This document shows, in pieces, positions 3,725 to 42,932 of a stretch of DNA of 43,104 bases. The notes under the pieces were generated by a model. The model had not been told where the DNA came from. It ran no database searches and was given only the letters and a program-made list of their open reading frames with translations. The position numbers were made by a program, and so were the translations under genes. The DNA is taken from NCBI GenBank assembly GCA_027049035.1, contig JALTVI010000092.1:1-43104 (forward strand), in the 5' to 3' direction. Source of the stretch: Sulfurovum sp. (GTDB taxonomy: Bacteria; Campylobacterota; Campylobacteria; Campylobacterales; Sulfurovaceae). Numbering within the stretch: position 1 is the first letter of the stretch; each line of letters opens with the position of its first letter.

Positions 3725-6061
3725 TTAGACGCGCCATACAAGGGCACAACTCTCTATATCGATATCTGTCTTTCTGGGTTTTATTTTGAACTCGGAAACT
3801 TCGCAATTCTCCACACTGTACTTCTCGTTTAACACATCGATTTTGTTTTCAAGCTCCTCCTCGAGCGCAACGATATCATCCTCGATGTCAGCGACACGCT
3901 GCTGGGCACGGCTCATCTCCCCACGCTCTTTTAGAATACGCCCGCCTTTGTTGACAGCCCTGCCTACCTTGCTGACGCTTGTCTTGCCAAAGAGTGCTCC
4001 CAGTACCGAAATTCCCGCCTCGATGATGCTGCTGGTAGAGTCCGCCTTCTCTTTTTCCACACGCGCTTTGGCACGCTCCAGACGCCCCATCAGCGTCTTC
4101 TCCTTTTTGGCATAACGCTCTTTGAGCTTCTCTATGGCCTCCTCCTTCTGCTCTTCGAGAAGGTCCTGCAGCCGTACCATGAAATCCGCCCGGCTCTCTC
4201 CCGCTTTCGATTCCAGTTTTGGACTCTTGCAGCGCCACAGTTGCAGTGCTTCACTCTGGTAAAGGTACTCTCTGAGCTCACGTATGCATTTTCGCAAGCC
4301 CCTGTCGTTCAGTAGCACTTCCGGAAGCGATGCGAAGTGTGCGTTTGTCGGTCCCGTGCGGGGAAAACGCTCGAAATCGGCTGTTTCCTCTTCGGCCTCC
4401 TCCCAGTCGATACGGGAAAGGGATGCCTCCACCGGCAGGGAAAGCAGCAAAGAGCGCTCCTCATCAATACCCCTGCTTTGGTTGAAAAAGTGTACAGTCG
4501 CCTTTGCTCCCACTGAGGGGAAGTAGTCGTTCCTTCCGGTCGGGTCGGGTTCAAAATACTGGGTGATGGAGCTATCTATCTGCTGGTAGGTCCGGGTAGC
4601 CGGCGCTTTACGTCTTCCTTCTCCGGACAGAATACCTGCTCTATTTTGAAGGACCATTCTCTTTTGAGCCATAAGTGTAGCGATTTCATCTTTTTTCAAC
4701 GGTCCCTTGAGGTAACTCAGCACCCATCGTGTCGTAAAGAGTCTGATATCCTCCAGATGTGCGCTTTTGAGAAAAAATGTACGTTTCTGCAGGTTTGAAA
4801 GCAGCGTTTTGATCTCACCCTTGTCGTAACTGGAGCCGACCTTTCCGCCAAGCCCGTCGATGACCCGTTCGATATCCTGCGATGTCTGCAGCCGTCCAAT
4901 AAACCAGGTACCGATGTTGGCAAGGCCTTTGTAGTCCAGGTCGACCGGGTTTTGCGTACTAAGCACCACACCCACACCGAATGCCCGTGCCTGCTTGAGC
5001 AGCAACAGCATCGGTTCTTTGCTTGGCGGATTCTTGCTTGGCGGGAAGAAGCCGAAGATCTCATCCATATAGAGCAGTGTCTTCAGCCTTGAAGTGCCGC
5101 TTTGGCGCCGCATCCATGCAATATAGCGGTTGAGCAGCAGTGTTACGAAAAACATCCTCTCCTGGTCGTTCAGGTGGGCAATGGAGAAGATGGCGATCTT
5201 CGCTTTGCCGTTCTCATCGTAGAGCAGGCTCTGGATATCGAGCTCTTCACCCTCCAGCCAGGATGCAAAACTTGGGCTTGCAAGGAGCGCATTGAACTTC
5301 GTGGCCAGTGCAAAGCGCTTCTTTTGCGGGAAGAAGTCCTCCAGCGGCAGCACACCGATCTTTTTGAACGGCGGTTTGATGATCTGTCCGATGATTGTTG
5401 CAATATCCATCTCCGCATCGGAAGTCCATGCCTGCATCAAAATCTGTGCGATGAGAATATATTCAGGGGTATCAAGCGAATCGGCATCTTCACCGATGAG
5501 TGCAAGCAGACTCGAAGCGGCGCTCTTGAGGTAGGAGGCCAGGGTATCACTCTCTTCCATAATTTCTGCAGGCGGCTTGCCAAGCGAAGAGAGAATATTC
5601 ACCGATACACCGGCAGAACTTCCCGGCGTATAAATGGTTTTTTCCACTGCGGCAAAGCGTGCCACCCGCTCAGTGCTCTGCTGCCAGCTCTCGATCCCCT
5701 CCTTCCACATCTTTGCTATCTTCTGTGCATAGAGTGCCGGCGCTTCGCCTTTTCCTTCCGCCTCGTCACGCACCCATGGCTCAAACCTTTCGGCAGAGAA
5801 GGTCGGGTCTGTCAGACAGAGATTTCCCATATCACCCTTTGGATCGATCACAATGGCAGGGACATTGTCGATAGCCGCCTCTTCAATGAGCGCTACCCCC
5901 AGACCTGTTTTTCCGGAACCGGTCATACCTATGATTGCCGCATGGGTAGTAAAATGCTTGTTCTTCAGCAGTGTCAGAACTTCTGTCGCCTGCTGCGTCT
6001 CTTTGTCCACATCTTTTCCCAGATAGAACAGTCCCAGTTTTTCATACACTTCCTGCATCAT
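3725..6061 (-). CDS. HerA/DUF87-type ATPase with C-terminal coiled coil
   Basis: This 778-residue cytoplasmic ATPase belongs to the HerA/VirD4-like group. Residues 45-52 form a Walker A loop (GMTGSGKT), IDPKGDMGNL follows near 73-82, and a Walker B region (LLYMDEIFGFF) lies mid-protein. Downstream, LSTQNPVDLDYKGL fits the sensor segment of DUF87 proteins. Residues from about 610 are rich in Glu/Lys heptads and should form long coiled coils around a short Gly/Ser-rich stretch (IIEAGISVLGALFGKTS). A second ATG three bases downstream is better spaced from AAGGA and may be the true start. Substrate and role are unknown: HerA relatives move DNA, but no nuclease partner lies beside it. It follows the type II secretion operon after an 82-base gap. 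Confidence 0.75.
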   Translation of the reverse strand: MMQEVYEKLGLFYLGKDVDKETQQATEVLTLLKNKHFTTHAAIIGMTGSGKTGLGVALIEEAAIDNVPAIVIDPKGDMGNLCLTDPTFSAERFEPWVRDEAEGKGEAPALYAQKIAKMWKEGIESWQQSTERVARFAAVEKTIYTPGSSAGVSVNILSSLGKPPAEIMEESDTLASYLKSAASSLLALIGEDADSLDTPEYILIAQILMQAWTSDAEMDIATIIGQIIKPPFKKIGVLPLEDFFPQKKRFALATKFNALLASPSFASWLEGEELDIQSLLYDENGKAKIAIFSIAHLNDQERMFFVTLLLNRYIAWMRRQSGTSRLKTLLYMDEIFGFFPPSKNPPSKEPMLLLLKQARAFGVGVVLSTQNPVDLDYKGLANIGTWFIGRLQTSQDIERVIDGLGGKVGSSYDKGEIKTLLSNLQKRTFFLKSAHLEDIRLFTTRWVLSYLKGPLKKDEIATLMAQKRMVLQNRAGILSGEGRRKAPATRTYQQIDSSITQYFEPDPTGRNDYFPSVGAKATVHFFNQSRGIDEERSLLLSLPVEASLSRIDWEEAEEETADFERFPRTGPTNAHFASLPEVLLNDRGLRKCIRELREYLYQSEALQLWRCKSPKLESKAGESRADFMVRLQDLLEEQKEEAIEKLKERYAKKEKTLMGRLERAKARVEKEKADSTSSIIEAGISVLGALFGKTSVSKVGRAVNKGGRILKERGEMSRAQQRVADIEDDIVALEEELENKIDVLNEKYSVENCEVSEFKIKPRKTDIDIESCALVWRV

Positions 6062-13899: not shown

Positions 13900-14346
13900 A
13901 TGCACTATCGAACTTCCCCGACACAAAACAGCATGAGAAAAGGCTTCTCGCTGATCGAACTGCTCATTGTCATTGTCATTCTCGGCGGACTTGTCGCCGT
14001 GGTCGCCCCCGGACTGATGGACTCTGCCGACCAGGCAAAGCGCGATACGGTCTGCCTGAAGATGGATGATCTCAAAAAACGTCTGGATATGTTCAAACTC
14101 GACAACGGTGTCTACCCCGATACCGAAGAAGGCTTCGAAGCGCTTCTGAGCAACCCAGATGCGGACAAATACCCCAACTACCGCACAAAACCCTACCTCA
14201 AGAAGCTGCCAAAAGACTCGTGGAGAACCCCGTTCATCTACATCAACAAAGGTGACGATGTAGAGATCATCTCTCTGGGTGCCGACCGCAAACAGGGCGG
14301 AGAGGGCAATGGCAAAGATATCAAATTTTCCGAGTGTAACAAGTAG
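13900..14346 (+). CDS. gspG: type II secretion major pseudopilin GspG
   Basis: The main subunit of the pseudopilus. The type III signal is RKG/FSLIELLIVIVILGGLVAVVAP, with Glu at +5 of the mature protein. The conserved GspG region follows: MDDLKKRLDMFKLDNGVYPDTEEGFEAL, then YLKKLPKDSWRTPFIYI and ISLGADRKQGGEGNGKDI, which includes the calcium-loop area. ATG 13900 has AAGGA upstream; ATG 13933 has none and would leave a leader of only three residues. The first gene of the rightward set. Confidence 0.95.
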   Translation: MHYRTSPTQNSMRKGFSLIELLIVIVILGGLVAVVAPGLMDSADQAKRDTVCLKMDDLKKRLDMFKLDNGVYPDTEEGFEALLSNPDADKYPNYRTKPYLKKLPKDSWRTPFIYINKGDDVEIISLGADRKQGGEGNGKDIKFSECNK

Positions 14347-14354
14347 CACTTTCT

Positions 14355-14903
14355 ATGCTTCCCCACACTCGCTTCAACAGTCAGAAAGCATTTTCCCTGC
14401 TGGAGCTGCTGCTGGTGATCTTCATCGTATCGCTGGTCTATTTTCTGGGCTTCAGCGGTTTCGAGAAAGAGAAAAAGCGTATGCCTGTTCTGACACCGCT
14501 GAAGCTGAAAGAGGAGGTGATACAGAGCCCTCTTTTCAGGGGACAGGGAACACTCATCTGCATCGACGGGTGCCGATCGTGCTACTTCAGAGAAGATATC
14601 ACTTCTCCCTTTGAAGCCTACAAAGGCAAAACAAAACTCTCGCACCTCAAGGTCTACACCCTCGATGGCAACGATGCACTGACGCAGCTTGAGTATGGAC
14701 GCTACCGGGACCGGAAGATTTGCCTGCAGGTCGACTTCTATCCCAACGGCAGCAGCACACCGCTGATTCTGCAGAACGATGAGGGTGTCTACTTTCTTCC
14801 CGCTTTCTTTGGCGAGGGCAAAAAGGTGACGTCAATTGAAGAGGCCAAGGCGTTGTGGCTGAAACACAATGATGCCCTGAAGCATCAGGGGGACTACTAT
14901 TGA
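14355..14903 (+). CDS. type II secretion minor pseudopilin, GspH-like
   Basis: A 182-residue pseudopilin with leader MLPHTRFNSQKA followed by FSLLELLLVIFIVSLVYFLG. It carries Glu at +5 but Ala instead of Gly at -1 of the peptidase site, a departure from the usual motif that some pseudopilins tolerate. Two Cys in CIDGCRSC give a CxxxCxxC cluster near residues 69-76, which could form a disulfide or bind metal. Order after gspG suggests GspH. It overlaps the next gene's TTG start by four bases. Confidence 0.7.
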   Translation: MLPHTRFNSQKAFSLLELLLVIFIVSLVYFLGFSGFEKEKKRMPVLTPLKLKEEVIQSPLFRGQGTLICIDGCRSCYFREDITSPFEAYKGKTKLSHLKVYTLDGNDALTQLEYGRYRDRKICLQVDFYPNGSSTPLILQNDEGVYFLPAFFGEGKKVTSIEEAKALWLKHNDALKHQGDYY

Positions 14904-15421
14904 AGCCTTTAAACCATTGCCCACAAAGGTTTCACCCGATGGCGACAAAGGAGCACTCAACCCCTGAAAGGGGCGCTTGCGTTTGCGACTGCCAGAGCTA
15001 TCGGGTAAAACTACTGAGGCCGGGGTTTACCCTCATCGAGATCCTCATTTCGGTCCTGATCCTCTCGACCTCCATTGTCTACATTCTGAAGATCTACGGA
15101 CAGAACCACGAACAGATTGTCTACATCACCCAGCGCAACGCCCACGCCCTGGAAGATTCACTCTTTCTCGGCAAGGATGTGCTCCGTTACCACAAGGAAG
15201 AGAAGTCCGCATACGACCTCATCGAGCGTGAGATAAAGGTGAATGACTTCGAGAGCAGGAAAATCCTCAAAAATATCAAGCGTACCATCTTCATACCCGA
15301 ACCCATCACCCTTTCTCCCGAAGAGGAGGGAGACGAAACGCCTGCTGCACTCATCAACGAAATCAAACTCAAGGGTGACTACGCCTCCACCTACTTCCGC
15401 TTCGACCTGCAGTCTTTCTGA
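14900..15421 (+). CDS. type II secretion minor pseudopilin, GspI-like, with element-encoded leader
   Basis: The type III signal reads RPG/FTLIEILISVLILSTSIVYI, with cleavage predicted after residue 42 from TTG 14900 or after residue 29 from ATG 14939. Downstream is a short GspI-like globular domain (173 residues in total). The leader is much longer than usual because a palindromic repeat (14928-15012) lies in frame within it. No ATG, GTG or TTG in this frame lies between the element and the signal, so part of the element must be translated. ATG 14939 is inside the element, with AAAGG just before. Cleavage would remove all foreign residues, which may explain why the insertion is tolerated. Confidence 0.75.
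   Translation: MKPLNHCPQRFHPMATKEHSTPERGACVCDCQSYRVKLLRPGFTLIEILISVLILSTSIVYILKIYGQNHEQIVYITQRNAHALEDSLFLGKDVLRYHKEEKSAYDLIEREIKVNDFESRKILKNIKRTIFIPEPITLSPEEEGDETPAALINEIKLKGDYASTYFRFDLQSF
14928..15012. repeat. Palindromic repeat element, copy A (short form)
   Basis: About 85 bp bounded by near-matching terminal inverted repeats (GTTTCACCCGATGGC against the complement of the right end, GTTTTACCCGATAGC). It shares the left section GGCGACAAAGGAGCACTCAA and the right section GTTTGCGACTGCCAGAGCTA with copies B and C but lacks their middle of about 77 bp. It lies inside the gspI-like coding sequence. It has the same orientation as the other two copies. Confidence 0.85.
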
Positions 15422-15505: not shown

Positions 15506-16720
15506 ATGCTGTTTAAATACAAAGGATTCGACAAAGCAGGGAAACGTGCCAAAGGCACGGTTACCGCATCCAGCAGCGAAGAGGCGGCACAGAAGCTCCG
15601 TACTCTGGGGATCTACTACGAATCACTCACCCCTGCAAAAAACTTTTCGATAGAGGGACTTGGAAAGCGACAGATGTCCGGTGAAATGCTCGCCTCCTTC
15701 TCCAAAGAGCTCTCCTCCTACCTCAACTCAGGCATGACCATCCTTACAGCCATCCGTCTGATGGAGAACCAGCATGAGGGTGAAAAGCGCTACACCTCCT
15801 TCCTCAATGCACTCAGAACGATGATCGAAGAGGGAAACTCCCTCTACCACGCCCTCAATACCCAAAAGGTTTACCAGCTTCCGGAATTCTACGTACAGAG
15901 CCTCAATATTGCAGGACAGAGCGGCAAAATGGCGGAAGTTTTGACCAACATGGCTGCGTTCTTCTCCGCACAGGACAAGGTGAAAAAGCAGGTCAAGGGA
16001 GCGATGGTCTACCCCAGCGTCATCATGACCGTCGCCATCGCCATCACCGCCTTTCTCATCAGCTTCGTCGTACCGAAGATTACCGAAATCTTCGAAGACA
16101 CCGACCAGAAGTTGCCGCCCATCACCCAGTTCGTGCTTGGCATCAGTGACTTTCTAAGTGCATACTACATTCATCTTATCGTAGGTATTGTGCTCTTCAT
16201 TGTGCTCTTCAAGCTCGCCTACGCGAAAGTGTACAGTTTTCACCGTCTCATCGACGGATGGCTGCTGCGCATGCCGGTCCTTGGCAACATTATCCAGAAC
16301 CATGAGCTTGGACGCTTCTCCTACATCCTCTCTCTGCTGCTTGGCAGCGGTGTGGCCTATGCACAGGCAGTCAAACTGGCAGTCGCCTCCTTTGGCAACT
16401 ACCGTCTTGCCGAAATGTTCGAACGCGCTTCGGACAAGGTGATGGAGGGGAACAAACTTTCCAACGCCCTGCAGCTTGAGGGTGGTGTGAAGCTCAAACG
16501 AAACTTCCTGCAGTCTCTGGCTCTGGGTGAAGAATCTAGTGAAGTGGCAGAGGTACTCGCCAACCTCTCTACACTTTATGCAGAAGAGAACGAGGAGAAG
16601 CTGAAGATGATGCTCAGTATGCTCGAGCCGGTTATGATGCTCATCATCGGCGCTGTTGTCGGAGTCATCGTCTCTGCGATGCTGCTGCCGATCTTTACGA
16701 TGACACAGGGACTTAAATAA
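15506..16720 (+). CDS. gspF: type II secretion inner-membrane platform protein GspF
   Basis: GspF is the polytopic core of the inner-membrane assembly platform. The 404 residues show the start MLFKYKGFDKAGKRAKG and two T2SSF domains. The first has LNSGMTILTAIRLMENQ near residues 71-87 and the second has LLGSGVAYAQAVKLA near 278-292. Three membrane segments lie at about 165-195, 215-240 and 370-395. The ATG follows GAGGATGG. It ends 27 bases before the RDD gene. Confidence 0.94.
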   Translation: MLFKYKGFDKAGKRAKGTVTASSSEEAAQKLRTLGIYYESLTPAKNFSIEGLGKRQMSGEMLASFSKELSSYLNSGMTILTAIRLMENQHEGEKRYTSFLNALRTMIEEGNSLYHALNTQKVYQLPEFYVQSLNIAGQSGKMAEVLTNMAAFFSAQDKVKKQVKGAMVYPSVIMTVAIAITAFLISFVVPKITEIFEDTDQKLPPITQFVLGISDFLSAYYIHLIVGIVLFIVLFKLAYAKVYSFHRLIDGWLLRMPVLGNIIQNHELGRFSYILSLLLGSGVAYAQAVKLAVASFGNYRLAEMFERASDKVMEGNKLSNALQLEGGVKLKRNFLQSLALGEESSEVAEVLANLSTLYAEENEEKLKMMLSMLEPVMMLIIGAVVGVIVSAMLLPIFTMTQGLK

Positions 16721-26034: not shown

Positions 26035-26077
26035 CCTTATCCTTTCAAATTAAATCCTCTGAATAATTTTATATCAA

Positions 26078-26239
26078 GGTTTCACTCGGCGGCGACAAAG
26101 GAGCACCCAACCCGAAGGGCGGCGCCTCCATGGCTATGCTTCGCTCCGACCATTCCGGTTCCGAAGCTACGTAAGACAAGCAGTTGTCTTCCGTTTACGC
26201 TTCTCATGTTTGCGACTGCCAGAGCTGTCGAGTGAAACC
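26078..26239. repeat. Palindromic repeat element, copy B (162 bp)
   Basis: Terminal inverted repeats GGTTTCACTCGGC and (right end complement) GGTTTCACTCGAC. Inner hairpin AAGACAA-GCAG-TTGTCTT. It is the same length as copy C and highly similar along its whole length. It occupies half of the arsR-arsB intergenic region. No transposase gene is in or near it. No target duplication is obvious at its edges. Confidence 0.88.
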
Positions 26240-28538: not shown

Positions 28539-28582
28539 ACCATTGCCTTTTTATAAATTGTCCTGTCTGATTAACGACAAGA

Positions 28583-28744
28583 GGTTTCATACGATGGCGA
28601 CAAAGGTGCACTCAACTCGTAGGGCGGCGCCTCCATGGCTACGCTCTGCTCCGACCATTTCGGTTCCGAAGCGACGAAAGACAAGCAGTTGTCTTTCGCT
28701 TACGCTTCTCATGTTTGCACCTGCCAGAGCTATCGCATGAAACC
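28583..28744. repeat. Palindromic repeat element, copy C (162 bp)
   Basis: Terminal repeats GGTTTCATACGAT and (right end complement) GGTTTCATGCGAT. The inner stem CGAAAGACAA/TTGTCTTTCG is a perfect 10 bp around GCAG. Outside the element, CTGATTAA (28567-28574) and TTAATCAG (28750-28757) form a further inverted pair, perhaps an older palindrome that received the insertion. It lies between the permease pair and the cytochrome gene. Confidence 0.88.
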
Positions 28745-29715: not shown

Positions 29716-30249
29716 TTAATAAAAACTGCGTCCAGCAGGTATAGTTCCCCGTGCATACCATGGATCATCATGTATCTTAAAGCGCCACAAAAATCTACCA
29801 ATTATCCCTTTTGCATAATAGATTTGCAATTCATCATGCTCTCTGTCTATCCATCCGCTGATTCTATACATCATGTTCCGAATATCTCTTTCTTCCCCTT
29901 TATCATCTTTCATCATCACCCTACTCATTTTTTCTGCTCTTTGATTTTTATCTAATGCTATAAATTCTGATTCTACAGCCATGATAGATTCAAACAGCTC
30001 TTTGAGTATATCTGAGGCATAGATGCTATTACGGATATATATCTCTTTGAGTGCCAAATAATCTTTGTATGGGTTATCTGTACCATACAGCATATGCTCC
30101 ATGCAGTAGACATACATAGGAGTGTATAGCTTCTCCAGCCTCTCTTTTATCTCATCTTTTTTACGATTAGAAATGAAAATGTAGAGGTTGGTTCCAGCAA
30201 CAAGTGTCGCGCCCATGATTGCGCCGATTCCTAGGGTATTAATGTCCAT
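29716..30249 (-). CDS. single-pass membrane protein, third gene of the Septu-like module
   Basis: A 177-residue protein with one N-terminal helix (IGAIMGATLVAGTNLYIFI, about 7-26), then a positive stop-transfer patch (SNRKKDEIKERLEK). This predicts a cytoplasmic body of about 145 residues. That body is helical and acidic/basic-rich (KLYTPMYVYCMEHMLYG, RISGWIDREHDELQIYYAKG). I recognise no family. ATG 30249 overlaps the HNH gene by 11 bases and has no clear ribosome-binding site, so translation is probably coupled. It is the last gene of the restriction/Septu-like chain. A membrane-anchored effector or regulator is possible but unproven. Confidence 0.6.
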   Translation of the reverse strand: MDINTLGIGAIMGATLVAGTNLYIFISNRKKDEIKERLEKLYTPMYVYCMEHMLYGTDNPYKDYLALKEIYIRNSIYASDILKELFESIMAVESEFIALDKNQRAEKMSRVMMKDDKGEERDIRNMMYRISGWIDREHDELQIYYAKGIIGRFLWRFKIHDDPWYARGTIPAGRSFY

Positions 30250-30865
30250 AATGATAGTCTACGGCGGCATTAATTAAATCCAATATATTTGGTTCTATGA
30301 GGAGTTCCGCCTCCTCAGTCATTCTCTGATAATATAATTCTTTTTCACGAACTTTTTGAATATATGGATCATCTAATTTAAATACTTCTATAGTTTTTAG
30401 CCCTTTATCTGTTATCGCATATATAATTACATCCTCCCAAAAAGCTATATGATCATCTACATTGTCCAACAAAGGATGTACAATCCGAAAAGTACATTGA
30501 CTATAATCATGATTCAAAATTTCTATGGTATCATATCTATTTTTCAAAGGTCTATTGCATGTAATACATGCAATTAATAAATTTCTTTTTTCAAATGTAA
30601 ATTGGGGATATCTTTCTTTATTAGAGAAGTGCTCTCTATCTCCATCATAACTTGTTCTAGTATCAATATCCTGCATACAATAAACGCATTTTTCATTCTG
30701 GATTCTCATCAACTCAGACTTCATTCTCAATTTCAAACTTTTCATTTCATCATTACCTTTGTAATATGTCCAACTCTTATCGTCATATTTTGATGGGCTG
30801 CGAAGATTGTTAAGATAGGCTAATTCTAATGGGGTATACTCAAAGGTTTCATTTAAATTAAGCAT
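30239..30865 (-). CDS. HNH endonuclease, PtuB-like
   Basis: A 208-residue nuclease with a zinc-type HNH core: C60-x2-C63 (CVYC), the REHF segment with His-79, Asn-95 in the NLL stretch, C100-x2-C103-N104 (CITCN) and K108. This pattern (CxxC ... EHF ... NLL..C..CN) is that of the HNH proteins that partner AAA ATPases in Septu and Ec78-type retrons. It starts two bases after the ATPase stop, after AAAGG. No other nuclease motif is seen. Its role would be phage- or host-nucleic-acid cleavage when released by the ATPase. Confidence 0.75.
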   Translation of the reverse strand: MLNLNETFEYTPLELAYLNNLRSPSKYDDKSWTYYKGNDEMKSLKLRMKSELMRIQNEKCVYCMQDIDTRTSYDGDREHFSNKERYPQFTFEKRNLLIACITCNRPLKNRYDTIEILNHDYSQCTFRIVHPLLDNVDDHIAFWEDVIIYAITDKGLKTIEVFKLDDPYIQKVREKELYYQRMTEEAELLIEPNILDLINAAVDYHYGH

Positions 30866-30867
30866 TT

Positions 30868-32292
30868 TTATGCCTTTGCATCTAAATATTTTTCAATTCT
30901 TTGTAATAAATCACTCAAGGGGTCATCCTTATGAAAAACAACTTGTTTCAACTCTACATAGCCTTCTTTAATCTTTCTTAAATTGTTATGATTATCTTCT
31001 GATATTAACTTAAAGATCTCAGTTAATTTTTTATGGAGGTAATAGTTGTTAACAGTACGTGTTTGAAAAATTCTATATAAAATATTTTCAGCTGACCAAC
31101 TATATATGTCTTCTGCAATGCACTCAACACCTTTATTAATGTTAATAGAAAAAATATTTGATTCATTTGATTTTAGTCCTGATACCATAAAATGTGAGTG
31201 AGTGGCAATAAATATATGAATATTTTTATATCCAGCTAATATTTTTTTTAGATGAAGGTTATATTTTAACTGCCAATTTGGGTGAAGGCTTATTTCAGGT
31301 TCATCAATAAGTAATATTGATTCATCTTTTATATTTGCTAGGATATTAAGAGTAACAAATAATAAGTTTTTTTCTCCAGAACTTAAATACTCAGAGTCTA
31401 TACCTGTTTCTTTATTAAATAATTCAATATTAGACTGTGCGATTAAATCTAAAGCAATCATATTCCTAACTATAGAATATTCGTCATCAAAAGGTTTGAT
31501 ACTACCGAAGTCAAAAACAATAGACATATAATGTTTATCTTTATTTATTTTTGCTTCTATTCTCTTTTCATGAATATATTTTACTAATTCATTTTCTTCT
31601 TGTTCTGAGAGTTCAATACGCTTATATTTTGAATTTTTATTAATAGTTTTCATTTTTTGCTGTATTGTTTTTCTAGTAATTTTCGTACTTACAATACTTT
31701 TAGCCTTATACTTGAAATTTATTTTTATTTTTGCTTCGTATCCAAGAAGATCAAATGTTCCAGCCATCTTATGTACAAAATTTGTATCATGAATATTGTC
31801 AAATAGAATTTCTCTTATTTTTTTGTTTATTGCCCCCACAAAAACTGCATTAGCAGTATTCCTCGCACCTAGATATTTATAAAAAGATTTTTTATTTTCT
31901 TCAATCGATTGAAAAATAAATTTATCTTCTTGTAAAGATGATAGAGCTAGTATGGTATTAGGTAACACAATTTCATTTATGGTTTTTATTTTATTGTTTC
32001 TTTTAAAATTGAATTCTTTCCCATTTTTTTCTATTTTATACCTATTCTGTCCTAAAGTATAATCAATAAAATAGTAACTTAAACTTTCATATCTATTATT
32101 TTGGGTATGCTTTAAACTTTCTATCTCTCTAAATATTTGGATTATTTTTTTTAAAAATAAACTTTTTCCAGTGCCATTCGGACCAATTACTATAGAAAAA
32201 ATAATATCACTTTTTAATGATTCTGTTTCAAATTCGAATGCCTGATTGTCTTTTATTTTATCAAACGAAATTTTATTTATGATGAATGGCAT
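30868..32292 (-). CDS. AAA/ABC-type ATPase, PtuA-like
   Basis: The 474-residue protein has the SMC/OLD-like ATPase layout: Walker A GPNGTGKS (37-44), the signature LSSGE (303-307), Walker B ILLIDEPE (326-333) and the switch His in ATHSH (363-367). A long Lys-rich helical insert lies between (about 195-250). The ending AEDIYSWSAENILYRIF is seen in ATPases of restriction-linked defence pairs. The HNH gene next door makes it a Septu-type PtuA candidate; GajA-like TOPRIM is absent. It starts within the hsdS 3' end (20-base overlap), after AAAGGA. The coding sequence is extremely AT-rich compared with hsdR. Confidence 0.75.
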   Translation of the reverse strand: MPFIINKISFDKIKDNQAFEFETESLKSDIIFSIVIGPNGTGKSLFLKKIIQIFREIESLKHTQNNRYESLSYYFIDYTLGQNRYKIEKNGKEFNFKRNNKIKTINEIVLPNTILALSSLQEDKFIFQSIEENKKSFYKYLGARNTANAVFVGAINKKIREILFDNIHDTNFVHKMAGTFDLLGYEAKIKINFKYKAKSIVSTKITRKTIQQKMKTINKNSKYKRIELSEQEENELVKYIHEKRIEAKINKDKHYMSIVFDFGSIKPFDDEYSIVRNMIALDLIAQSNIELFNKETGIDSEYLSSGEKNLLFVTLNILANIKDESILLIDEPEISLHPNWQLKYNLHLKKILAGYKNIHIFIATHSHFMVSGLKSNESNIFSININKGVECIAEDIYSWSAENILYRIFQTRTVNNYYLHKKLTEIFKLISEDNHNNLRKIKEGYVELKQVVFHKDDPLSDLLQRIEKYLDAKA

Positions 32293-33439
32293 ATTTATCC
32301 TTTCTTTCTAAGTCAAACTCCCCTCTAAACACCCGTTGAGAAAGTGAACCAAAAAGTTCATTTAATTCATCAAGACTTTTTTGGTAATATTTTTTTGTCT
32401 CTTCTACTTGTTGGACTATTGTGGCAAATTTGTTTTGAAGTGGTTTTGGTGGGTATCCTATTTCAATAGCTTCTAATTTTGTAGGTGAAGTATGCTTTAC
32501 TTTTGTTCCAGTTGCTTTTGAATGAATAATTTGACGGATTGATTTTTGATTAAATAAATAAAATATATAAGAATTAACAATAGGTTCTTTTGGAACAACT
32601 AACCCCAATCGCTGATTATGTAAGAACTTATTTGACTCTGGAATAATTAAAGAACTCCCTAATAAACCTGGAGCTTGTTCTGTCATTGCTATAAGTAAAC
32701 TATTCTTTTTTAAAATAAATTCATGTGGAATATCTCCTATATAATATTTTTGTTTTTTACCTCTATCCCTATAGCCACCTTTTTCAAAAAAATTACCTGG
32801 TGTTAATAATAGATATTCTCCATCATCACTGAAAAATTCACTTTTGAAAGCATAACCATGTTTGATATTAAAAATAGAACTAAGTTTGCGTTTTTTCCAC
32901 CCCATCGGATTCAACACAGGATCTCCAAACATATCCAAAAAAGTGCTTTTTAGTAATTCGTCAAGCAATCTAATACTCTCTTCTCGTTTCTCAATAAGTG
33001 CTTCTACTTGGGTTAAAAGGTTTGCTATTTTAATTTGTTCTTCAAGTGTTTTAGGAAAAGGAATTTCTATATTTGAAAGATATTTTTTGGAAATATGTTT
33101 AAGCCCAGCACCCTTAAAACCATCTTCAAGAATTGCTTTATTACTTTTTAAGAAATATGATACATACTTAACATCAACCTTGTCTTCATACTCTATATTC
33201 TTTTGTACTACAAAACAATCCGTCGATGTCGCAAACTTATCATTTATATAATGTAAACTTGCCTGCCCTCCTGTTCCAAAAACAATACTTTCGCCTTCAT
33301 ACAAATACTCGTCGTAGTATTTACTTAGTATTGGACTTGAAGTAAATAATGGGTACTTTCCTTCTTCTTTACCCTCACCAGCTTTTATTTTACTTTTCGG
33401 TAAAAATCTGAAAATATTGCCAAGTTTTTCTTTTTTCAT
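32273..33439 (-). CDS. hsdS: type I restriction-modification specificity subunit HsdS
   Basis: A 388-residue subunit with two target-recognition regions (about residues 1-130 and 180-320), each followed by a conserved helix: IPFPKTLEEQIKIANLLTQV and IGYPPKPLQNKFATIVQQVE. This two-fold design sets the bipartite DNA target. FGTGGQASLHYINDKFATST is typical of the first TRD. It overlaps hsdM by four bases and the ATPase gene by 20. It is much more AT-rich than hsdR and hsdM, as expected for a gene whose recognition parts are often exchanged. Confidence 0.93.
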   Translation of the reverse strand: MKKEKLGNIFRFLPKSKIKAGEGKEEGKYPLFTSSPILSKYYDEYLYEGESIVFGTGGQASLHYINDKFATSTDCFVVQKNIEYEDKVDVKYVSYFLKSNKAILEDGFKGAGLKHISKKYLSNIEIPFPKTLEEQIKIANLLTQVEALIEKREESIRLLDELLKSTFLDMFGDPVLNPMGWKKRKLSSIFNIKHGYAFKSEFFSDDGEYLLLTPGNFFEKGGYRDRGKKQKYYIGDIPHEFILKKNSLLIAMTEQAPGLLGSSLIIPESNKFLHNQRLGLVVPKEPIVNSYIFYLFNQKSIRQIIHSKATGTKVKHTSPTKLEAIEIGYPPKPLQNKFATIVQQVEETKKYYQKSLDELNELFGSLSQRVFRGEFDLERKDKYAIHHK

Positions 33440-34995
33440 TGAATTAAACTCTTCACTTCATTTAATCCGTTGACAATATCTTGTTCAATACTTTCCAATT
33501 TTTTCAAGATATCTTTTGGGTCATCATACGGTATCTCTTCATACACCTCTTCTTTGTAGCTATTGAAACTCAAATCATAGCCATTCTCTACAATCTCTTT
33601 TTTGGGCACAAAAAAGTGCTTGGCTTTTCTGTCATTCTTTGCTTCTTGGTCTCTGTTTTTAAATTTCTCTATAATATCTTGCAAATCACTCTGCTCTATT
33701 TTGGTACGTTTGTCATCGAGACTGTAACCGTCATGCTCCATCTCATAAAACCATACATCATAATCATTCTCTTTTGGAGCCTCTTTTTTACTATTGGCTA
33801 TTTTTGTAAAAATAAGTATGGCAGTTGCTACCCCTGCGTATGGCTTAAATACACCGCTTGGCATGGTAATAACCGCTTTTAGTTGCGACTGCTCCAGCAA
33901 TATTTTACGCGCTTCGACAAATGCTTTGGCCGTACCAAAAAGCACCCCTTGGGGGATGATCACCCCTGCTGTTCCACCTAGGCGAAGCATCGTATGGATA
34001 CGGTCTATAAATAGCAACTCTGTCTTTGTGGTACTGAGGGTTAAAGAGTCTGAGTCTATCTCTCCTTTGTTAAGATTACCCGTAAAAGGTGGATTGGCTA
34101 AGATTGTGTCGTAAGTACCAAGCTCTACGTGGTTGAACTTTTTACTCAGGGTATCCATATAGTCGATTTGCGGGTCGTCAATGCCGTGCATCATCAGGTT
34201 CATCAGCCCCAACCTCACCATTGTCACATCAATATCATACCCGTGTAATGAGCTGTCAAGTGCCTCTTTTACATTGTTTGTCAGAAGTGCACTCGTACTA
34301 CTGCGCCAAAAGCCGTCCTCATCCTGTACGGCATACTTTTTTTCAGTATCAAGAGAGGTGACAATATACTGATATGCTCCAAGCAAAAAGCCTCCAGTAC
34401 CACAGGCAGGATCACCCACCTTGTCGCCCAGTTTTGGTGCTACCAGTTCAGCCAAAAGCTTAATGATATGTCTAGGGGTTCTAAACTGCCCATTTTTACC
34501 GGCTGTGGCTATCTCACCAAGGAGCATCTCATACACATCACCCTGAATATCCTGAAATGCCTGACCATTCTCTTTTGCATCCCGTTCTATCTCTTTAAAT
34601 ATCTCTTCTATCGTACCGACAGCTTCAACAAGCAAAGAGGCAGAAGGGATAATGAAAACAGCATTTTTCATATGCTTAGTAAAATGCGAGTTTTGTCCGT
34701 TCAGCTCTTTGAGGAACGGGAAGACCTTCTGCTGTATATGCGTGAGCATCTCTTCTGCTGGAAGTTGCTTGAAGTTGCTCCATCTGAGCGTATCATCTGG
34801 AAAGATTGACTGGTAACTCTCACCTGTCCACTCAGCATCTGCCATGCGTTTGGTGTCTAACTCGTCTATACGCTTCATAAAAATAAGATAGGTTATCTGC
34901 TCTATAGCGGTCAGAGGATTGGAGATACCGCCACTCCAAAATTTATTCCATAGTTTGTCTATGAGGCTTTTTAGTGCTGGATTGTTCTGTAACAT
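33436..34995 (-). CDS. hsdM: type I restriction-modification DNA methyltransferase HsdM
   Basis: A 519-residue N6-adenine methyltransferase. The SAM-binding motif DPACGTGG is at 195-202 and the catalytic NPPF at 301-304. The N-terminal HsdM helical domain (SLIDKLWNKFWSGG, LIFMKRIDELD) is intact and the C-terminal part has a Lys/Glu-rich tail for subunit contact. The start overlaps the hsdR stop as TAATG. It would protect the host target and form the M2S core of the complex. Confidence 0.96.
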   Translation of the reverse strand: MLQNNPALKSLIDKLWNKFWSGGISNPLTAIEQITYLIFMKRIDELDTKRMADAEWTGESYQSIFPDDTLRWSNFKQLPAEEMLTHIQQKVFPFLKELNGQNSHFTKHMKNAVFIIPSASLLVEAVGTIEEIFKEIERDAKENGQAFQDIQGDVYEMLLGEIATAGKNGQFRTPRHIIKLLAELVAPKLGDKVGDPACGTGGFLLGAYQYIVTSLDTEKKYAVQDEDGFWRSSTSALLTNNVKEALDSSLHGYDIDVTMVRLGLMNLMMHGIDDPQIDYMDTLSKKFNHVELGTYDTILANPPFTGNLNKGEIDSDSLTLSTTKTELLFIDRIHTMLRLGGTAGVIIPQGVLFGTAKAFVEARKILLEQSQLKAVITMPSGVFKPYAGVATAILIFTKIANSKKEAPKENDYDVWFYEMEHDGYSLDDKRTKIEQSDLQDIIEKFKNRDQEAKNDRKAKHFFVPKKEIVENGYDLSFNSYKEEVYEEIPYDDPKDILKKLESIEQDIVNGLNEVKSLIQ

Positions 34996-42813: not shown

Positions 42814-42932
42814 CACATACTCCTTATATGATAATACACAGTATACTGAGCGTGCATCAACCATATGTGAACTGTTGCCAAAGTAACATTCAACTAACAA
42901 AGATTTTATACTATAATGCCAAAGGAGCATAC

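Follow-up and report, generated by a model that had tools for sequence, protein, structure and literature searches.

A palindromic repeat lies within the reading frame of a gspI-like minor pseudopilin gene in the Sulfurovum contig studied here (the window, meaning the whole stretch of 43,104 nucleotides that was analysed; its element copies and its secretion genes described below are on the forward strand). Its position raises the question of whether the repeat is translated and, if so, what becomes of the residues that it encodes. The original prediction held that one copy of a three-copy element is read as part of the pseudopilin leader and then cut off by prepilin peptidase. Our analysis confirms the observation behind this proposal and supports the interpretation in essence. 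With a probability of roughly 0.8, we consider this copy to be a MITE-like mobile insert in the gspI leader that is read through from the TTG at 14900 and removed by prepilin peptidase.

The gspI locus and its insert

All three copies that had been placed in the window are present. Copy A, a short form of about 85 nt from stem to stem (14928–15012), is the one inside the gspI-like gene; its outer stem is formed by GGTTTCACCCGATGGC paired with GCTATCGGGTAAAACT, and its core is GCGACAAAGGAGCACTCAACCCCTGAAAGGGGCGCTTGCGTTTGCGACTGCCAGAG. Copies B (26077–26239) and C (28582–28744) are intergenic long forms of 163 nt, 87% identical to each other, that have additional hairpins in the apical part relative to the short form. 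The gene that hosts copy A (14900–15421) begins with a TTG. It is preceded by gspG, encoding the type II secretion major pseudopilin (13900–14346; above the cut-off of TIGR01710), and by a gspH-like pseudopilin gene (14355–14903) whose stop overlaps the gspI start, and it is followed by a gspF-like gene (15506–16720; best NCBIfam match TIGR02120, E 4e-85, below the curated cut-off). The gspI-like product itself scores above the cut-off of IV_pilin_GFxxxE, just under that of N_methyl and below that of the gspI model. Its class III signal, a glycine before the hydrophobic FTLIE, is covered by N_methyl and IV_pilin_GFxxxE at residues 42–60, and these motif matches predict a prepilin peptidase site (15023–15028) between this G (15023–15025) and the F of FTLIE (15026–15028). 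A prepilin peptidase gene (PF01478) is present in the genome.

Related genomes provide a clear view of the locus before insertion. Empty gspI sites were found at five loci (L091–L095) in G048, G050 (two loci), G041 and G023, where the mature GspI is 91–96% identical to that of the window and the leader has only 7 residues, M-K-P/T-L-R-P-A/G^FTLIE, counted from a TTG overlapping the gspH stop. The window has an extra 105 nt, or 35 codons (NHCPQRFHPMATKEHSTPERGACVCDCQSYRVKLL), between leader codons 4 and 5, with no stop codon inside. Alignment with the empty sites and with full-length copies of the element places the inserted segment at 14912–15016, with ends that are ambiguous by a few nucleotides; it is wider than the stem-to-stem hairpin and is missing in all relatives. 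We also looked for the situation that would have spoken against the original prediction, namely relatives with the same leader and no repeat elsewhere, and the prediction was not refuted.

The native TTG (14900–14902) overlaps the gspH TGA stop in the sequence TTGA and is preceded by a Shine-Dalgarno-like AGGGGGA (14887–14893), which reads GGGAGA or GGAGA in relatives and is conserved throughout the genus. The codon at this position is ATG at two related loci (L087 and L097) and TTG in the others, fixing the start. It had been noted from the beginning that this TTG and an ATG at 14939–14941 are both in frame with RPGFTLIE and that the stretch between the element and the signal lacks a start codon. 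Both statements hold, as the codons in question are GTA AAA CTA CTG AGG CCG GGG and include no ATG, GTG or TTG. Because the native TTG and its Shine-Dalgarno sequence are intact and the mature pilin is under strong purifying selection, the sequence evidence indicates that the ribosome very likely reads the element as part of a leader of 42 residues, which prepilin peptidase then cuts off.

Two other starts have to be weighed against the native TTG. The element might itself supply the start, with translation from ATG 14939 (AAAGG, 8 nt, ATG) giving the leader MATKEHSTPERGACVCDCQSYRVKLLRPG; the native TTG would then have been abandoned and the element would still be translated. In its favour, ATG codons generally initiate better than TTG, and this one has AAAGG just upstream. 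However, the AAAGG and the ATG lie in or at the foot of a very stable predicted stem, the ATG in its 5′ arm, and conservation of the native start extends to the TTG itself, its Shine-Dalgarno sequence and its overlap with the gspH stop (TTGA). We therefore regard initiation at ATG 14939 as unlikely. Scarcely credible is a start at the non-canonical codon CTG 15014, downstream of the element, which would yield MRPG^FTLIE and turn the element, including NHCPQRFHPMATKEHSTPERGACVCDCQSYR, into an untranslated leader. This codon is in frame and would restore a leader of near-natural length, but it sits in the 3′ arm of the stem with no Shine-Dalgarno sequence before it, a good native start is kept upstream, and CTG starts are rare.

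With TTG 14900 as the start, the history of the locus can be reconstructed as follows. A non-autonomous palindromic element, presumably mobilised in trans by a transposase, would have inserted between gspI leader codons 4 and 5 after the lineage split from its closest sampled relatives. Translation would still begin at the ancestral TTG, coupled to the gspH stop, and the ribosome would read through the element to produce a leader of 42 residues instead of 7. Cleavage by prepilin peptidase after Gly42 would leave the mature pseudopilin unchanged, and the insertion would therefore be nearly neutral. Prepilin leader peptides vary in length and remain cytoplasmic until they are cut (PMC10191384). 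The notion of the gspI leader as a “safe harbour” for the element gains plausibility from the length of natural leaders of this gene in the genus, which ranges from 7 to about 22 residues; the 42-residue leader exceeds all of those seen. Taken alone, an uninterrupted frame across the element would not be unlikely: depending on the frame, 9–48% of copies are open.

Mature gspI of the window differs from that of L091 by 26 synonymous and 4 nonsynonymous changes. Because this corresponds to a dN/dS of 0.035, the gene is functional, or was so until very recently. The larger part of this selection signal may have accumulated before the insertion. It is very improbable, in our estimate, that gspI is dying or that the insertion is an assembly chimera. 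The sequence does come from a metagenome assembly (G000; 2.49 Mb, completeness estimate 99.8%), whose nearest named relatives are metagenome-assembled Sulfurovum genomes, and the right terminal repeat of copy A is truncated, but the frame is kept, the gene is otherwise intact and its dN/dS low, the neighbouring secretion genes are intact, and the element occurs in frame in two more genes, in one of them at a position shared by two species. A local error is conceivable in any such assembly, but here the junctions lie well inside the 43-kb contig.

Copies in other genes and other genomes

Copy A was first found by plain sequence similarity to copy C; against the family covariance model, which was built from sequences that include copy A, it scores 84.9 bits (E ~5e-23). 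A sequence search of the 2.49-Mb assembly gives a copy number of about 34. With the covariance model, the family was detected in 31 of 78 Sulfurovum genomes, at up to about 30 copies per genome, and no copy was found in the remaining 47. Genera of the same family outside Sulfurovum have at least 10 copies in each of G135, G311, G417 and G307, and other families of the order gave weak matches only. Chance is excluded as the source of the repeat family. Plasmid and phage collections yielded no match to the element, and a partial repeat at 42897 (repeat family D4) proved not to be a copy of it.

Several further observations concern the margins of the family and the surroundings of its copies. G004 has four divergent, low-copy members (L267–L270) whose stems are fully different. 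Two of the weak matches (L284 and L285, in G090 and G113, from another family of the order) have the CACTTAACCCGTAGGGCAGC apical motif without GACAA and may be remote relatives or chance. In the window, copies B and C have the same orientation and lie 2505 bp apart, with permease-like genes and an arsB-like transporter gene (PF02040) between them; this segment could be lost through recombination of the two copies. The G+C content of positions 30000–34000 is 0.29–0.32, compared with about 0.51 in most of the window, which suggests that this segment was recently acquired.

Beyond gspI, copies in frame, with empty-site orthologs, were found in two further genes. In msrA (PF01625) of the same genome, a short copy of 135 nt is inserted in frame after codon 3, such that ATG CAG CAG, 135 nt, ATA GGA TTC here (L236, G000 C85:137250-137768) corresponds to ATG CAG CAG ATA GGG TTT at the empty site of the sister genome G048 (L237). 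In the gene for a conserved protein of about 650 residues (L224, L225, L226), G048 has a long copy in frame and in opposite orientation, G000 retains an in-frame remnant, PLSPSRETSVPM, in the corresponding position, and the site is empty in G050. This protein has no Pfam match, and its identification as RelA/SpoT-like was given up when Pfam provided no confirmation. Each of the three genes, gspI, msrA and that of the 650-residue protein, reads the element in a different frame, so that nothing points to a single conserved peptide encoded by it.

Among the 156 copies that were examined, these three cases alone span real genes; all others appear intergenic or in antisense frames, a classification that relies on ORFs, a rough dicodon score and visual checks and that falls short of full annotation. 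We accordingly discarded the idea of widespread in-frame reading: by the dicodon score and visual inspection, most ORFs that span a copy run antisense or terminate ahead of the true start codon of the adjacent gene. Because nearly all of the 156 copies are intergenic or antisense, purging of the element from genes is strong. The copies found in frame have survived where an insertion is tolerated, namely in a cleavable leader, at the very N-terminus of an enzyme and in an N-terminal segment.

A fixed core and replaceable stems

The core of the element is almost invariant, with an internal loop that reads GACAA in its 5′ strand and GCCRGAG in its 3′ strand, whereas the stem sequence is replaced between copies and its pairing kept. 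Among 86 distinct arm pairs, 95% of stem cells pair and 181 cells are compensated, compared with 30 in shuffles. A family-wide alignment of 35 sequences, with rows picked to include divergent stems and with imperfectly aligned apical hairpins, shows changes on both sides of all 16 outer-stem pairs and 263 compensated cells, as against 84 in shuffles and 53–74 in slid controls; this signal is solid for the outer stem and the second helix. A striking example is provided by orthologous copies that lie, in two species, between an S4-domain-like gene and an ffh-like gene, the latter named from its sequence and not by a family search. These copies (L262, around 4089–4177; L263, around 5038–5129) have the conserved core and an outer stem that is wholly different yet paired. 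Around the hairpin, full-length copies have imperfect outer repeats, ATTGAAAyCTCTGAAtAA on the left and its complement on the right; in copy A the left one can still be recognised, whereas its counterpart on the right is truncated. The outer repeat is also similar to the ancestral gspI start, ATTGAAGCC, a likeness that may reflect target preference or chance.

An Rfam scan of the three window copies and divergent family members returned no known RNA, and six miRNA, snoRNA and snRNA hits around copies B and C, all below threshold, were put down to chance. As far as sequence can tell, the element represents an undescribed hairpin family with a near-invariant core and stems of replaceable sequence. 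Selection for structure, acting on RNA or single-stranded DNA (ssDNA), would explain the covariation. Alternatively, the covariation may be mutational, arising from repeated template-switch correction between the palindrome arms without selection.

This distinction bears on whether the family might be a functional structured RNA or ssDNA hairpin, with the gspI copy serving to regulate or partition the gspH-gspI transcript. The very strong stem covariation in all 16 outer-stem pairs, the near-invariant internal loop and the orthologous pair at the ffh site speak for such a function. Nevertheless, we find it improbable: the copies are dispersed and differ between close species, 47 of the 78 genomes have none that we could find, Rfam offers no match, and the arms of a palindrome can be co-corrected through template switching in the absence of selection. 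A different proposal, which we put forward tentatively and at less than even odds, is that the family is a mobile, structure-recognised hairpin of the Sulfurovum family. In this view, stems of free sequence hold a junction and an invariant internal loop, in which GACAA faces GCCRGAG; its RNA or ssDNA form would be recognised by a mobilising or host protein, and in-frame copies would be tolerated as disposable leaders.

Relation to known palindromic elements

The description of copy A as MITE-like reflects several properties of the family: its members measure at most a few hundred base pairs, have imperfect terminal inverted repeats and are too short to encode a transposase. No target-site duplication was seen at the gspI insertion site; the msrA insertion is flanked by CAG on either side, but CAGCAG is present at the empty site as well. 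Y1 transposases (Y1_Tnp), the only family surveyed for a mobilising partner, had no gene within 1.5 kb of any copy and none that could be found in three copy-rich but incomplete genomes. A Y1 (RAYT-type) enzyme is thus unsupported as the partner of the element. Sulfurovum NBC37-1 is among the hosts of GTAG/CGTC REP repeats (PMC3733652), dispersed palindromes that are partly RAYT-associated. REP elements, however, are 20–40 bp long with a fixed tetranucleotide tag, whereas the element described here measures 85–163 nt and rarely has such a tag near its stem base (GTAG in 6 and CGTC in 14 of 156 copies), and its assignment to this class was rejected.

Rickettsia palindromic elements (RPEs) of 100–150 nt provide a closer parallel in that they, too, are dispersed palindromes that occur in frame in conserved protein genes at near-neutral positions (PMC2229807, PMC10969869). 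The likeness is one of behaviour in another phylum, and sequence relation is not part of the comparison. As the original prediction had proposed, the parallel extends to in-frame insertion into coding genes, here conserved ones with empty-site orthologs (gspI, msrA and the 650-residue protein). It also covers the presence of many dispersed short copies (about 34 in this genome; 31 of 78 genomes). It breaks down over the share of genic copies: 19 of 44 RPE copies in R. conorii are in reading frames (PMC10969869, PMC2229807), but nearly all Sulfurovum copies are intergenic, and instead of about half the copies in frames with a conserved encoded peptide, we find 3 of 156 in three frames. The replacement of stem sequence between copies around an almost invariant loop core also sets the Sulfurovum element apart. 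By analogy, then, the element seems to work like an RPE, and we do not class it as one.

Fusions involving the MITEs ERIC, of enterobacteria, and the Yersinia palindromic sequence (RU-2) are similar in that a MITE is read in frame. In Yersinia, part of the signal peptide predicted for YPO1552 is derived from a MITE (PMC2229807), which makes this the nearest precedent for an element-derived export leader. The difference is that YPO1552 is a putative new exported protein with a predicted signal peptide, whereas the Sulfurovum copy lies in a leader that stays in the cytoplasm and belongs to a conserved pseudopilin of type II secretion, for which empty-site orthologs exist. The literature searched, whose scope left out most subscription journals, contained no report of such an element in Campylobacterota.

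What is new here is an element family that combines the behaviour of a protein-coding palindrome with free stems around a fixed loop core. It provides an independent case, in another phylum, of protein-coding palindromic elements, which are known mainly from Rickettsia, and it does so with clean empty sites at three genes. The gspI copy further constitutes a natural experiment on the maximum length of a prepilin leader. Finally, the combination of stems that vary freely with a loop core that is fixed makes the question of mobilisation testable, as the recogniser of the element would be expected to read its structure and not the sequence of its stem.
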